Positions 14,401 through 19,727 of a stretch of 33,407 nucleotides of DNA are shown here, one piece after another. Below the pieces are notes generated by a model. It ran no database searches, was not told the DNA's origin, and saw only the letters and a list, made by a program, of their open reading frames with translations. The stretch's first letter is position 1; each line of letters begins with the position of its first letter. Origin of the DNA: Gemmataceae bacterium (GTDB taxonomy: Bacteria > Planctomycetota > Planctomycetia > Gemmatales > Gemmataceae); the NCBI GenBank assembly GCA_022614915.1, contig JAKEHV010000095.1, positions 1-33,407 on the forward strand, read 5' to 3'. Made by a program: the position numbers and the translations under genes.

Positions 14401-14454
14401 GTGGGGCGAACATTCTTGTTTGCCCACTTGAGCAATAGGAATGTTTGCTCCACC
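14401..14454. repeat. Imperfect palindromic repeat of the GTGGGGCAGACATT type
   Basis: GTGGGGCGAACATTC at the left end pairs with GAATGTTTGCTCCAC at the right end with two mismatches. A related shorter copy lies at 14556-14579. Confidence 0.65.
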
Positions 14455-14468
14455 AGATCAAACGCGCA

Positions 14469-14498
14469 GCCCGCGCCAAAGCGCGGGCTTTTTTGTTT
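14469..14498 (+). terminator. Rho-independent terminator
   Basis: GCCCGCGC, loop CAAA, GCGCGGGC, then TTTTTTGTTTT. It is a textbook intrinsic terminator closing the TIGR03000 transcription unit and separating it from the MFS gene. Confidence 0.92.
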
Positions 14499-14555
14499 TC
14501 CGCGCACGGATTGTTTGCATCGGTTCCAACACGCCGTTACAGTGGGACGAATCCC

Positions 14556-14579
14556 GTGGGGCAGACATTTCTGTCTGCC
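14556..14579. repeat. Short copy of the GTGGGGCAGACATT palindrome
   Basis: GGCAGACA and TGTCTGCC form a perfect 8-bp stem around TTTC. It shares the GTGGGGC..ACATT start of the element at 14401. Confidence 0.65.
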
Positions 14580-14639
14580 GATGGGACGGCAAGCTCGAAA
14601 ACCTGCCACACGCAGCCGAATTTTCAGGAAGCACCGCGC

Positions 14640-16184
14640 ATGAATCCTTCCGTCGCTGCCCAGCAACCCACGCGCGTCCGTTACGGTGTGCTCGGCTTTG
14701 CCTGCGCTTTGTCGATGATCACGTACTTGGACCGTGTTTGTTTTGGCACGGTGGCGTCGGACATTCAAACTGAGTTTGAGCTTTCGGAGACGCAGAAAGG
14801 CATGCTGTTTTCGGCATTTGCGTTGGCCTACGCCGCCTTCGAAGTGCCCAGCGGCTGGCTGGGCGACGTCTTCGGCGCCAAAAGGACGCTCATCCGCATT
14901 GTGCTCGCCTGGTCGCTGTTCACGGTGCTGACCGGGCTGATTTATCCGACGGTCATGGGGGCGACGCTGGCGTTCGTGGCGATGCTGACGATCCGCTTTC
15001 TCTTCGGCGTCGGCGAGGCCGGGGCGTATCCGAATATCGCGCGGTCCTTTCACAACTGGTTTCCCTTTGAAGAGCGAGCGACCGCCAAAGGCGCGGTGTG
15101 GATGGCGGGCCGGTTCATGGGCGGGCTGTCGCCGTTTCTGGTGATGGCCCTGGTCTTCCAAACCAGTTCCGGCGGGCAGACAGTCACGCATTGGCGGCAC
15201 ATCTTTTGGATCTTCGGCGCTATCGGCGTGTTCTGGTGCATTGTGTTCGCGTGGTGGTACCGGGAACGGCCGGAGCAGCATCCGGGCGTCAATCGAGCCG
15301 AACTCGCGATGATTCAGCGCGGCGAGGAGCACGGCGCGGCGACCGCGGTCCCGTGGCGCAAGATCTTCACGAACGGCAACCTGTGGATTTTGTGCATGAT
15401 GTACTTCTGCGCCGCCTACGGATGGTATTTCAACATCACCTATCTGCCGGGATACCTGCGCGATTATTTCCCGGACCATTTTGGCCCTGCCACGCGTGAC
15501 AAATGGTCCGCGGAATGGTTGACGTTCGGCATCATGGCCGGCGCCCCGCTCCTTTTAGGCTCCGTTGCCTGCTTAGGCGGCGGCTTGCTTTCGGATTTCT
15601 TCATTAAACGCACCGGCAACCGCAAATGGGGGCGGCGCTTGTTCGGCGTCATTGGTCATAGCTGCTGCGCTCTCTGCTTTTTCCTCGCGGTCTTCGCCGA
15701 CACGCCCTATCTGTTTATCCTCGCCCTCGCCTTTGCCGCTTTCTGGAACGACGTCACGATGGGCGCGGCCTGGGCTAGTTGCATCGACATCGGCAGAAGA
15801 TTTTCCGGCATCGTTGCGGGTTGCATGAATACAGTTGGAAACATCGGCGGCTTTTTCGCGGGCTTCATCTCCGGGATGATCATTGACGCGTATCGCACCG
15901 GCCTGCCCGCGCATGCGCCGCGCGAAGAGGTCCTGGAGGCAAGCCGACCCGGTTGGACCGTCAACTTTTTGATTTTTGGCGGCGTGTACGTGATTGCGAC
16001 GTTGCTCTGGCTGCGTTTCGACTCGACGAAGCCGATCGCGCCTGAGGAACCCAAAAAAATCGCCGGTGAGGACGACGAGTGGAGCCCCGCCTACCGGACG
16101 GTTTCGGCAGAATCGAAAGGCGACAAGATCGAACCGCACGGCGACGAACCCACCGATCCCACGAAGCACGGCATCAAGGAATGA
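14640..16184 (+). CDS. MFS transporter, ACS (anion:cation symporter)-like family
   Basis: 514 residues from ATG 14640 (AGGAAG upstream); an earlier in-frame start at 14445 would cross the terminator and repeat region. Twelve membrane helices are readable. The first helices hold M-I-T-Y-L-D-R-V and the loop 2-3 signature G-W-L-G-D-V-F-G-A-K-R, with R-F-L-F-G-V-G-E-A-G-A-Y-P-N in helix 4, as in hexuronate/glucarate-type ACS members. The C-terminus is a 45-residue charged cytoplasmic tail. Uptake of a sugar acid or similar organic anion is inferred from the family only; no catabolic genes are adjacent. Confidence 0.9.
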   Translation: MNPSVAAQQPTRVRYGVLGFACALSMITYLDRVCFGTVASDIQTEFELSETQKGMLFSAFALAYAAFEVPSGWLGDVFGAKRTLIRIVLAWSLFTVLTGLIYPTVMGATLAFVAMLTIRFLFGVGEAGAYPNIARSFHNWFPFEERATAKGAVWMAGRFMGGLSPFLVMALVFQTSSGGQTVTHWRHIFWIFGAIGVFWCIVFAWWYRERPEQHPGVNRAELAMIQRGEEHGAATAVPWRKIFTNGNLWILCMMYFCAAYGWYFNITYLPGYLRDYFPDHFGPATRDKWSAEWLTFGIMAGAPLLLGSVACLGGGLLSDFFIKRTGNRKWGRRLFGVIGHSCCALCFFLAVFADTPYLFILALAFAAFWNDVTMGAAWASCIDIGRRFSGIVAGCMNTVGNIGGFFAGFISGMIIDAYRTGLPAHAPREEVLEASRPGWTVNFLIFGGVYVIATLLWLRFDSTKPIAPEEPKKIAGEDDEWSPAYRTVSAESKGDKIEPHGDEPTDPTKHGIKE

Positions 16185-16251: not shown

Positions 16252-16635
16252 ATGGCGAAAGGCGCCGGCAAAGCAAGAAAGAAGCTGCCCAAGACGTTGG
16301 CAGTGGTCAACGCGGACAACTGCACCGGCTGCGAGGCCTGCATCGAGGTCTGTCCGGTCGATTGCATCTACAAGGTGCCGGGCGAGGACCAACCGGTTCT
16401 GCAGAGCTTCGTGGACATCGACCTGGAGCGGTGCATTGGCTGCGACCTTTGCGAGCGCTGGTGCCCATGGGACGCCATCGACATGGTGCCGACCGGTCAA
16501 ATCGCGGAGGCGGTGGCGAACAAAGGCGGTCCCGCGGATTACGTGGAAAAGAATTGGGAAAACCTGGTCGCGGTAGCGCAGTCGCTGCAGGACTTGGCGG
16601 CCGAGCAAACCGCGGCGACGCCGGCGAAAAAGTAA
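16252..16635 (+). CDS. 2x[4Fe-4S] ferredoxin-like protein
   Basis: 127 residues, cytoplasmic. Cluster 1 ligands are C24-x2-C27-x2-C30-x3-C34-P and cluster 2 ligands C61-x2-C64-x2-C67-x3-C71-P. An additional Cys38 sits where the second-cluster ligand of simple ferredoxins would fall. The second site has W-C-P-W-D instead of the usual C-P-x-G/x-A. N-terminal Lys-rich residues and a C-terminal helical Ala/Gln tail extend the fold. GAGGG lies about 8 nt before ATG 16252 and a TAGAAT-like -10 box near 16215. It is an electron carrier; its partner is not evident, since the peroxidase downstream acts on the other side of the membrane and a terminator lies between them. Confidence 0.93.
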   Translation: MAKGAGKARKKLPKTLAVVNADNCTGCEACIEVCPVDCIYKVPGEDQPVLQSFVDIDLERCIGCDLCERWCPWDAIDMVPTGQIAEAVANKGGPADYVEKNWENLVAVAQSLQDLAAEQTAATPAKK

Positions 16636-16765: not shown

Positions 16766-18199
16766 ATGCGCCATGGGATCTTGTTGTTGTTGGCGGGGGT
16801 CTCCTTATCGGGTTGCAAGCCGGCCGAGCGCTTCGGGCCCGTCAAAGCCGCTAAGGAGTCTACCAAGAAAGAACGTCCGCAGGATGATCTAAAAAAACAC
16901 TGGGTTTTCATGCTGCCCAAGGAAGCGCCCGACGTGCCGATCGTGTTCGTGGCCAACTCCGCGCCGGAATGGAAAAACCTGACTCGCTTTTGGAATCTCG
17001 ATCCCTCTCCTGCCCTCGGCGCGCGCACCGCACACCTTGGACAAGCGCCTTTGGGCGTCGCCGTCAGCCTTGCCGCAACGCTGCCTTTGGACACGATCAA
17101 GATCAAAGTGCCGCTCGGCCTGCCCGATCCAACGCCGCACATCCCGCCCGGCAACCTACCCACCTATACGAAATGGCGGCTGGGCAAACGGCTCTTCTAT
17201 GATCGGATCTTCCAAAGCGGACCGGACAGATTCTCGTGCGCCACCTGTCACCAGCCCGCACATGGTTTCGCGGAAGAATGGGCTGTCACGCTGCAAGGCA
17301 ACCGCAACACGCTAAGCCTGCTCAATGTCGTTTACAATCGCCAGCAATTCTGGGACGGCCGGGTAGGCTCCTTGGAAGAAGTGCTGGCGCGATCCTTGGA
17401 AGACGAACTTCCTGTGGATGCCTCGGACTCGACGGCCAAAAGGCAGCGAACCCATCGCTGGGGCGGACTGGTCAAGACGCTCGCCGGCGATTCTTACTAT
17501 CAATTCCACTTTAAGGAGCAGTTCGGCATCGCCGTGCCGACGCAGGATGCCATCGCCAAGGTCTTGGCGACTTACCTGCGCACGCTCCTGTCGGCCGGCT
17601 CGCTCTACGATTATGCCGAGCAGGAGCGCCAAGCGCGTGGGGCGGCGGAGTTGTCCGCGCAGCATTTTAGCCGGATGCTCGATGCCGCGACCCAGAAGGC
17701 CCTGGGCGTGCCCAAAGAAAAAAGCGAAGACGTTGCCAATAAATTAGAGCGCGGCCTGCGCTTGTTTCACGGCTCGGCTCGGTGCGGGCAATGTCACAAA
17801 GGCCCGCTCTTCACCGACCAGGATTATCACAACATCGGCATTGGTGAGAGCGAGGAGATGCCGCTCCCGGGCGACGAGAAAGGCCGATTCGCGTTCGTGC
17901 CGATCGGGATGAAGGAGTCGCGGCTGATCGGCGCTTTTCGCACGCCGACGCTGCGCAACCTGCCGCGCACCTATCCCTATTTTCATGACGGCAGCCGGCG
18001 CTCGCTCAAAGACGTGGTGAATTACTACGATCACGCGGTGTTTCCGAGCGCTTTCTTGGCGCAGCCGTTGCGTGCCGGGCTGCACGAGTCTGTCAGCTTG
18101 CATTTGTCCGACAGGGACAAGGAAGCACTCGCCTTGTTTCTGCGTGCGCTGGATGGGGAACCGGTCGACCCCATCGTTTTGGAGAAACGAGAAAAGTGA
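16766..18199 (+). CDS. Di-haem cytochrome c peroxidase (CcpA/MauG family) lipoprotein
   Basis: 477 residues from ATG 16766, chosen for AGGGAGG about 8 nt upstream and the lipoprotein signal L-L-L-L-A-G-V-S-L-S-G-C17. Two c-type haem sites are present: C158-A-T-C-H162 and C340-G-Q-C-H344. Around them are family blocks Y-T-K-W-R-L-G-K-R-L-F-Y-D, N-V-V-Y-N-R-Q-Q-F-W-D-G-R-V-G-S-L and F-R-T-P-T-L-R-N-L. The enzyme reduces H2O2 in the periplasm with electrons from small cytochromes or an electron donor, or oxidises a partner as MauG does. A roughly 100-residue N-terminal part before the peroxidase domain (W-V-F-M-L-P-K ... V-F-V-A-N-S-A-P-E-W) is unassigned. The next gene starts 1 nt after its stop. 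Confidence 0.93.
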   Translation: MRHGILLLLAGVSLSGCKPAERFGPVKAAKESTKKERPQDDLKKHWVFMLPKEAPDVPIVFVANSAPEWKNLTRFWNLDPSPALGARTAHLGQAPLGVAVSLAATLPLDTIKIKVPLGLPDPTPHIPPGNLPTYTKWRLGKRLFYDRIFQSGPDRFSCATCHQPAHGFAEEWAVTLQGNRNTLSLLNVVYNRQQFWDGRVGSLEEVLARSLEDELPVDASDSTAKRQRTHRWGGLVKTLAGDSYYQFHFKEQFGIAVPTQDAIAKVLATYLRTLLSAGSLYDYAEQERQARGAAELSAQHFSRMLDAATQKALGVPKEKSEDVANKLERGLRLFHGSARCGQCHKGPLFTDQDYHNIGIGESEEMPLPGDEKGRFAFVPIGMKESRLIGAFRTPTLRNLPRTYPYFHDGSRRSLKDVVNYYDHAVFPSAFLAQPLRAGLHESVSLHLSDRDKEALALFLRALDGEPVDPIVLEKREK

Positions 18200-18200
18200 A

Positions 18201-19004
18201 ATGCAAACGGACCTCAGACGCGCCTATTTGATCGAGCTAGTGGGTACGTTCGGCTTGGTGTTTTTCTCCGCCGGCGTCGTGTGCATCAATTACCTGGCGG
18301 TTCCGTTCGGTCAGCCGTTCGACTCGCCCTTGAACCAGCATCAACCGGGGTTAGCCGGCGTGGCGTTGGCGCAGGGCTTGATCCTCGCCGTACTGTTATC
18401 GATAACACTGCCTGTTTCCGGCGGCTACTTGAACCCGGCCGTCACGGTCATGCTCTGGACCATGAACCGGATGGACACGCGGCGGATGTCGTGGTTTTTG
18501 GGGGCGCAGCTTTTAGGGTCGTTCCTGGCCGGTCTGTGTTTGCGCTACACCTTTCACGTCGATCTGCTTCAGTCTGCCCGCTTCGGCACGCCGCACCTGA
18601 AAATCGAGGCTTATCACGAGATTAGCCAAAGGACGCTTTTTGCCGGCACCGGCGTGGAACTTGTCTTGACGTTTTTCGTAGTCCTGGCCATGTTCTGCCT
18701 CGCGCGCAAGAAGGCGCTGACTGCGTCCCAACTGGATCAGGATGAGGCGCGGCGCGCCGCCTGGGCCGGGGGAGCGGCGGCAACAGCGGCAACGCTGGTC
18801 GGCTTTTCCCTTACGGGCGCGGCTTTGAATCCGGCGCGCTGGTTCGGCCCCGCGGTCTGGGAAGCCTGGGTCATCGGCGAGACGGTACGCGGCGGCCCGT
18901 TCGTCGACGTCTTAGTGTTCATCGCCGGCCCGACGCTGGGCGCCTTGCTGGCGGGCCTCTTCTACTTTTGGATCTATCGGCCCGCGCTGCCGGACAAACC
19001 GTAG
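18201..19004 (+). CDS. Aquaporin/glycerol-facilitator family (MIP) channel
   Basis: 267 residues, six membrane helices and two half-helices: N-P-A at 78-80 (G-G-Y-L-N-P-A-V-T) and 210-212 (A-L-N-P-A-R). ATG 18201 lies 1 nt after the peroxidase stop, so translation is probably coupled. Gap-free alignment with E. coli AqpZ around each N-P-A places Q58, T198, A207 and R213 at the four selectivity-filter positions (F43, H174, T183, R189 in AqpZ; W, G, F, R in GlpF). This polar filter differs from both. Water, H2O2 or another small neutral solute is possible; coupling to a peroxidase suggests peroxide, as inference. The TAG stop lies inside a palindromic repeat. Confidence 0.9.
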   Translation: MQTDLRRAYLIELVGTFGLVFFSAGVVCINYLAVPFGQPFDSPLNQHQPGLAGVALAQGLILAVLLSITLPVSGGYLNPAVTVMLWTMNRMDTRRMSWFLGAQLLGSFLAGLCLRYTFHVDLLQSARFGTPHLKIEAYHEISQRTLFAGTGVELVLTFFVVLAMFCLARKKALTASQLDQDEARRAAWAGGAAATAATLVGFSLTGAALNPARWFGPAVWEAWVIGETVRGGPFVDVLVFIAGPTLGALLAGLFYFWIYRPALPDKP

Positions 19005-19086
19005 GACAGGATTCCGATCCTGTCCTGAAATTAGGACGGTATTCAAATCCGTCCCAAGTGCGGACAGGAACGGAATCCTATCCTAC
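19001..19086. repeat. 86-bp nested palindromic repeat (GGACAGGATTCC type)
   Basis: The outer arms GTAGGACAGGATTCC and GGAATCCTATCCTAC pair with one mismatch. Inside are AGGACAGGAT/ATCCTGTCCT (perfect 10-bp stem, 19003-19026) and a GGACGG.AT/AT.CCGTCC hairpin (about 19033-19055). It contains the aquaporin stop codon and ends 11 nt before the DUF3501 start. Confidence 0.85.
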
Positions 19087-19097
19087 GGGCTGATCGC

Positions 19098-19727
19098 ATG
19101 GCCCCTTTGACGGTCGATGACTTGCTGCCTCTTGAGGAATACGTCGCGCGGCGGCGCGAGTTCTTCGACGCCCATCGCCGCTATATCGACCGCTGTCGCC
19201 GCGTTCGCATCGGGCCGCAACTCACGCTCGTCTTCGAGAATCGGCGCACGCTCTGGTTTCGCGTTCAAGAAGTCGTTCGCATTGCCCGCTTATCGAGCAC
19301 TTCCGATATCCGACAAGAACTGAATCTCTACAACCGGCTGCTGCCGGGCCGCAATTTATTGCAGGCCGCTTTGCTCATCGAGATCCCCGACGAAACACGT
19401 CTCGCCCAGGAATGGTCCGCCTGGCGAAACCTGAGCGGCGAACAGCTCTGGCTCGATGTCAGCGCCGAGCAGTTTCCTGCGCACTTGGTCACTTGCCGGC
19501 CGGAGGACCGCTGCGTCGGCACGGCTCATTGGGTGCAGTTTCAAATCCACTCGGATGGCCGAGCGCTCTTGGCGGACGTTAATTTGGCGGCGCGCTTCGC
19601 TTTCGACAACGACATCTATCGCCACAAGAGCGCGCTTTTGACCGACGATTTGCGTTTGAGTCTGGTCGATGATCTAGACCTTTCTCATGATCAAGAAGCT
19701 CCCAAGGAATTGCGGCTGGCGGCCTAG
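19098..19727 (+). CDS. DUF3501 family protein
   Basis: 209 residues, soluble. It matches the DUF3501 pattern: L-T-V-D-D-L-L-P-L-E-E-Y at the start, then R-R-E-F-F, the central L-T-L-V-F-E-N-R-R-T-L-W-F-R-V-Q-E-V-V-R, and E-L-N-L-Y-N-R-L-L-P-G with L-L-I-E-I-P. In many genomes DUF3501 genes sit beside an Fe-S oxidoreductase or rubrerythrin-like gene and are thought to be linked to redox stress, but no biochemical function is established. Here it follows the peroxidase/channel pair after the 86-bp palindrome, a context that agrees loosely with peroxide stress. No strong ribosome-binding site is seen before ATG 19098. Confidence 0.83.
   Translation: MAPLTVDDLLPLEEYVARRREFFDAHRRYIDRCRRVRIGPQLTLVFENRRTLWFRVQEVVRIARLSSTSDIRQELNLYNRLLPGRNLLQAALLIEIPDETRLAQEWSAWRNLSGEQLWLDVSAEQFPAHLVTCRPEDRCVGTAHWVQFQIHSDGRALLADVNLAARFAFDNDIYRHKSALLTDDLRLSLVDDLDLSHDQEAPKELRLAA

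Follow-up and report, generated by a model that had tools for sequence, protein, structure and literature searches.

An aquaporin-family channel of Gemmataceae inherited with a divergent di-haem CCP_MauG subfamily and linked to DUF3501: a possible peroxide-related module

A physiological partner is known for only a few aquaporins of bacteria. Water channels of the AqpZ type carry Phe/His/Thr(Cys)/Arg at the four positions of the selectivity filter and GlpF-type aquaglyceroporins carry Trp/Gly/Phe/Arg, while the filters described for TIP/AQP8-type channels are H66/I192/G201/R207 in human AQP8 and H63/I185/G194/R200 in AtTIP2;1, and H2O2 conduction has been reported for His/Ile/Gly/Arg channels such as AQP8 (excerpt of PMC5816522). 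Among bacterial aquaporins proposed for H2O2 flux, the peroxiporin So-AqpA of Streptococcus oligofermentans is of the water type, has a functionally important Phe40 and exports H2O2 (excerpt of PMC6912568). As for haem enzymes of peroxide metabolism, a distal Gln, Pro and Glu are conserved across bacterial di-haem cytochrome c peroxidases (bCCPs), MauG and BthA, variation at these positions is thought to be detrimental to peroxide binding, and Met-His ligation is the rule for the high-potential haem of bCCPs (excerpt of PMC6405878). DUF3501, a functionally uncharacterised family with ties to peroxide defence, has been reported to occur almost always, or almost only, with the peroxide-scavenging aerobic rubrerythrin (Cardenas 2016; excerpt of PMC5114695). 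In the literature searched on aquaporin/peroxidase clusters or operons, on planctomycete aquaporins and on peroxide defence in Gemmataceae, a pairing of the kind presented here is not described.

The window, i.e. the whole stretch of 33,407 nucleotides analysed, belongs to a draft genome (G000; 601 contigs, 86% complete) of a Gemmataceae bacterium, which holds three MIP genes including the channel considered here. On the + strand an MFS transporter, a two-cluster ferredoxin, a di-haem CCP_MauG lipoprotein, the MIP channel and a DUF3501 protein follow one another (Table 1); the MFS transporter is syntenic with the ferredoxin in some relatives, and, of the 14 genomes holding the di-haem subfamily described below, 8 have the ferredoxin 5' of the di-haem gene. 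As the preliminary description had stated, the channel starts 1 nt past the di-haem gene (stop ending at 18199, ATG at 18201). The gap between channel and DUF3501 is filled by an imperfect hairpin (z -6.8 against shuffles); it could serve as a terminator, stabilise the mRNA or represent a small palindromic repeat.

Table 1. Features of the locus; positions are counted from the first letter of the window.
Feature	Position	Strand	Basis
MFS transporter (longest frame; true start probably further in)	14445..16184	+	Pfam search
Two-cluster 4Fe-4S ferredoxin	16252..16635	+	Pfam search
Lipoprotein-type di-haem CCP_MauG-family protein, 477 aa, channel-linked subfamily	16766..18199	+	Pfam, motifs, tree
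First haem motif CATCH, residues 158-162	17237..17251	+	sequence motif
Altered distal pocket: Val206 (for Gln), Ser210 (for Pro), Asp213-Glu214	17381..17407	+	alignment
Second haem motif CGQCH, residues 340-344	17783..17797	+	sequence motif
MIP-family channel, 267 aa	18201..19004	+	ORF, Pfam, AlphaFold2, fold match
Gln58, filter H2 (Phe in AQP5; His in HIAR relatives)	18372..18374	+	alignments
Thr198, filter H5 (His in AQP5; Ile in HIAR relatives)	18792..18794	+	alignments
Ala207, loop-E filter position	18819..18821	+	alignments
Arg213, filter arginine after second NPA	18837..18839	+	alignments
Imperfect hairpin, very stable, filling the channel/DUF3501 gap	19001..19086	+	folding, -51.8 kcal/mol
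DUF3501 protein (PF12007)	19098..19727	+	Pfam and neighbourhood survey

The channel is a member of the MIP/aquaporin family (Pfam PF00230, 121 bits, E 6e-35), with NPA motifs at residues 78-80 and 210-212; its AlphaFold2 model (mean pLDDT 92.6, pTM 0.90) has the aquaporin fold, matching AqpM (2evu; Z 31.9, rmsd 2.3 Å, 236 aligned) and AtTIP2;1 (5i32; Z 29.9, rmsd 2.1 Å, 222 aligned), and it scores only 59 bits with the AqpZ model, the cut-off of which is 256. The preliminary description had placed Gln58, Thr198, Ala207 and Arg213 at the filter; the same assignment is returned by a phmmer alignment with human AQP5 (5c5x and others), in which these residues stand opposite the H2 Phe, the H5 His, the loop-E Cys and the Arg, and by MAFFT alignments of relatives. 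The family, the two NPA motifs and the filter Arg are shared with AqpZ and GlpF, but Q/T/A/R differs from both F/H/T/R and W/G/F/R, and assignment to either the AqpZ-type water channels or the GlpF-type aquaglyceroporins is rejected. The earlier claim of a filter unlike those of water and glycerol channels is thus correct as far as it goes; the proper comparison, however, is with the HIAR and HIGR filters of the TIP/AQP8 type. The window channel resembles AtTIP2;1 and human AQP8 in its fold, its Arg, its small loop-E residue and a non-His H5, but over the four filter positions compared it has Gln for the H2 His and Thr for the H5 Ile, and its clade is a bacterial one with links to DUF3501 and a di-haem protein.

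Q/T/A/R cannot be called a conserved signature, being found in 3 of the 81 rows of a filter scan (the window, G018 and G044); these rows, 80 loci from named genomes plus the window, are a biased sample, as the scan patterns contained NPARW, and include 44 with HIAR, 6 with HVAR and 6 with HIGR. At the 63 scan loci outside the 17 planctomycete orthologues neither DUF3501 nor the di-haem gene was found nearby. The orthologues have QVAR, QAAR, QTAR, EVAR, EVGR, ATAR, ITAR and, in G023, QVAC, in which the filter Arg itself has become Cys; HIAR is kept by G012 alone, 20 of the 21 orthologues read having departed from it, and over the clade H2 is Q, E, H, A or I and H5 is T, V, A or I. Phylogenetically (16 of the 31 channel sequences of A1 were taken into A2, and 54 of the 81 filter-scan rows into A3), the Gemmataceae channels form one clade (100/100) whose sisters (99/95) are channels of another family of the same order, represented by three sequences (HIAR in G061 and G064, QIAR in G063), and the nearest relatives outside the clade are mostly HIAR. 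Since the tree places the clade beside mostly-HIAR channels, the Gemmataceae filter is a derived, relaxed filter of the TIP/AQP8 type; a descent of the clade from HIAR channels is supported by this topology, and, to judge from the small side chains at its H5 and loop-E positions, the pore may be polar and fairly wide.

Orthologues of the channel (E 1e-20 or better, a cut-off that sets the count) occur in 21 of 95 Gemmataceae genomes. The di-haem gene of the window belongs to a subfamily delimited by a gap in E value from 1.6e-78 to 6.6e-67, present in 14 genomes, every one of them among the 21 with the channel, and in none of the 74 that lack it; the corresponding Fisher probabilities, 5.7e-12 by genome and 1.6e-6 by genus, are both too small, the genomes being related. 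The only further row under E 1e-66, from G039, lies beyond the gap (6.6e-67) and falls by score in the general group. The subfamily is monophyletic (one clade, 100/100), and none of its members turned up beyond Gemmataceae when 248 genomes of the class were surveyed. Physical adjacency is looser: the di-haem gene is directly upstream of 6 of the 21 orthologues, at distances of 1 (G000), 91 (G004), 25 (G027), 19 (G043), 76 (G121) and 87 nt (G124), and with G038 and G044, where one lipoprotein gene intervenes, the two are adjacent or one gene apart in 8 of 21. Five genomes carry them on separate contigs (G040, G122, G003, G012, G036), both lie at contig ends in G017, and seven channel genomes are devoid of the subfamily (G123, G018, G051, G034, G035, G024, G023). 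The proposal that channel and di-haem gene make up a unit is supported by their inheritance, 14 of 21 against 0 of 74, and only in part by their order. In G043 the ferredoxin, the di-haem gene, the channel and DUF3501 are in line, and in two channel-less genomes of the same genus (G116, G056) the ferredoxin directly abuts DUF3501, so that di-haem gene and channel are missing there as a block; this suggests that the pair is gained or lost as such.

The tightest partner of the channel is DUF3501: for 18 of the 21 orthologues the two genes are neighbours and run in the same direction; G051, G034 and G018 are without DUF3501, the contig of the last ending 175 bases past the channel match. That channel, di-haem protein and DUF3501 are functionally linked is very probable, and the roles of all three become testable together. 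The aerobic rubrerythrin-DUF3501-RFO cluster (excerpt of PMC5114695) is similar in that DUF3501 lies in a small conserved cluster of redox proteins, but the neighbours here are the channel, the di-haem lipoprotein and the ferredoxin, and no match to rubrerythrin (PF02915) was found in the window's genome as assembled. Across the 95 Gemmataceae genomes DUF3501 is present in 52 and rubrerythrin in 19, a departure from the near-strict co-occurrence given in that excerpt. The only structure to resemble the DUF3501 model (pLDDT 78.5) is 3fjv, a functionally uncharacterised protein (Z 19.3, rmsd 2.8 Å, 187 aligned), other structures staying under Z 7, and a search with DUF3501 against plasmids gave no match.

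The di-haem protein has a lipoprotein-like start (LSGC), two CXXCH haem sites and a CCP_MauG domain (PF03150, 109 bits), and shares with bacterial di-haem CCPs, MauG and BthA this domain, the two motifs and a Tyr at the second-haem ligand position. The linked subfamily differs in that the distal Gln, Pro and Glu are all replaced and that the Tyr is kept in only 7 of 14. At the family spacing (Gln, Pro four residues on, Glu ten residues on) all 15 other members that were compared, a sample drawn from a larger set, have the three residues, whereas not one of them is kept by any of the 14 linked proteins; the window protein has Val, Ser and an Asp-Glu pair, the latter invariant in the subfamily (14/14). 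The distal Glu may have shifted by two residues. In an alignment read by eye a Tyr stands opposite the Met of 3hq6 that we take to be a haem ligand, and the Met ligand expected on the high-potential haem is accordingly missing. The MauG equivalog model (NCBIfam TIGR03791) gives 116 bits against a cut-off of 444, and a match to hydrazine synthase gamma is marginal (E 5e-4, 19 bits, cut-off 625). The partner had been called an H2O2-reducing enzyme; with none of the three family-conserved residues in its distal pocket, that label is premature. To judge from its sequence, the linked di-haem protein is not a standard peroxidase, and a subfamily which has lost the standard peroxide-binding residues in 14 of 14 members would today be misannotated as ordinary cytochrome c peroxidase.

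A separate pairing occurs elsewhere in the class. A query with a channel of the HIAR lineage gave matches at E 1e-40 in 7 of the 248 class genomes, and in three of these (G097, G240, G202), from three other families, the channel is followed by a CCP which is canonical, with Gln, Pro and Glu kept; the filter is HIAR in G097 and G240, the two channels in which it was read. In G240 the gene of a thiol peroxidase (204.8 bits, cut-off 123) stands before the channel, whose frame shares 8 nt with that of the CCP, provided that the longest CCP frame is the true one. The CCP family of this pairing is present in 111 of the 248 genomes, so that the channel is the rarer partner; among the best 30 of the 111 CCP loci a channel was found at two, G240 being a third outside those 30. 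A HIAR channel paired with a canonical CCP, once beside a thiol peroxidase, favours peroxide handling.

The reading we prefer, although only tentatively, is that of a peroxide-related channel/enzyme module which has diverged in Gemmataceae, the solute being suggested mainly by the neighbours and by the second pairing. The channel would be an inner-membrane aquaporin derived from HIAR channels, with a fairly wide polar pore, through which a small uncharged polar solute, most likely H2O2, would equilibrate between cytoplasm and periplasm; the di-haem lipoprotein, on the periplasmic face, would consume or use this solute, and DUF3501, with the ferredoxin, would represent the cytoplasmic side of the same stress response. 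This reading is favoured because the subfamily is found only with the channel, even on separate contigs in five genomes; because DUF3501, which adjoins so many of the channels, is tied to peroxide scavenging by rubrerythrin (excerpt of PMC5114695); because a methionine sulfoxide reductase, MsrB, directly precedes the channel in G018; and because AQP8 is reported to conduct H2O2 and a streptococcal aquaporin exports it (excerpts of PMC5816522 and PMC6912568). So-AqpA differs from the window channel in that no enzyme partner is described for it in the excerpt of PMC6912568. The peroxide theme proposed at the outset is supported for the surroundings of the channel, by DUF3501, by MsrB in G018 and by the thiol peroxidase-channel-CCP order in G240. 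The strongest argument against peroxide as the solute is the altered di-haem pocket; the seven channel genomes without the subfamily, the variable filter, the damaged-looking channels of G027, G003 and G002 (all in draft assemblies), the stress-unrelated genes (beta-lactamase-family, SASA esterase or DUF6807) upstream of the channel in G051, G034, G040 and G003, and the lack of a rubrerythrin match in G000 (86% complete) also weigh against the module.

That pocket leads to the first alternative, rather unlikely in our estimate, according to which the module handles another small polar solute, pore (His and Ile lost at H2 and H5) and di-haem pocket having both been re-tooled: the enzyme would act on, e.g., a nitrogen or one-carbon compound arriving via the channel, or oxidise a partner protein in a MauG-like manner. 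The replacement of Gln/Pro/Glu throughout the subfamily with gain of an invariant Asp-Glu, the departure from HIAR in nearly all orthologues, the inclusion of MauG in the CCP_MauG superfamily together with the weak hydrazine synthase gamma matches, and the carriage of ammonia by HIGR channels such as TIP2;1 (according to a PDB title) are all consistent with it; the DUF3501, MsrB and thiol-peroxidase neighbourhood nevertheless points to peroxide, the hydrazine synthase match is marginal, and G012 keeps HIAR though its di-haem pocket has already changed, so that filter and pocket changes are not strictly coupled. The narrower version, a co-evolved pair re-tooled (Gln/Glu and a small H5 in the filter, Asp-Glu in the pocket) for a substrate other than H2O2, is unlikely; if true, the pair would represent a di-haem enzyme of a new class, supplied through a pore of its own.

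Quite unlikely, too, is a general osmotic or solute channel (for water, glycerol or urea) in a loosely conserved MFS-ferredoxin-DUF3501 housekeeping neighbourhood, with the di-haem gene as a passenger. Proximity of the pair in only 8 of 21 orthologues, the varying upstream genes and the presence of MFS or ferredoxin beside DUF3501 in 8 of the 20 DUF3501 loci without an intact channel (ferredoxin in two, MFS in six; a broken-looking channel in one, G002) agree with such a view, but the confinement of the subfamily to channel genomes even where unlinked (14/14), the linkage of DUF3501 in 18 of 21 and the separate channel-CCP pairing in other families argue against it. That annotation coincidence or an assembly artefact brought the neighbours together is hardly credible even for a draft in 601 contigs, and is refuted by the same order in G004, G027, G043, G121 and G124, a rough estimate that assumes 12 such genes in 5500 predicting 0.02 directly upstream di-haem genes against the 6 observed in 21.

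Some further observations concern individual loci. Channel copies at L043:6391-7014, L051:6330-7169 and L133 look damaged, with an internal deletion, a frame change and fragments, their neighbours being intact; channels of this appearance are those of G027, only 207 aa long and lacking the filter position of helix 5, of G003, with its frame change, and of G002, true decay and draft-assembly error giving the same picture. The MsrB of G018 (L037:3160-3693) has an N-terminal hydrophobic stretch. The protein encoded between di-haem gene and channel in G038 and G044 (L036:5457-6305, L038:1367-2218) is a CarboxypepD_reg lipoprotein, and a MauG-like enzyme could have it as its protein substrate. An MFS transporter related to that of the window lies directly 5' of DUF3501 at the channel-less loci L128, L129, L130, L131, L134 and L139.
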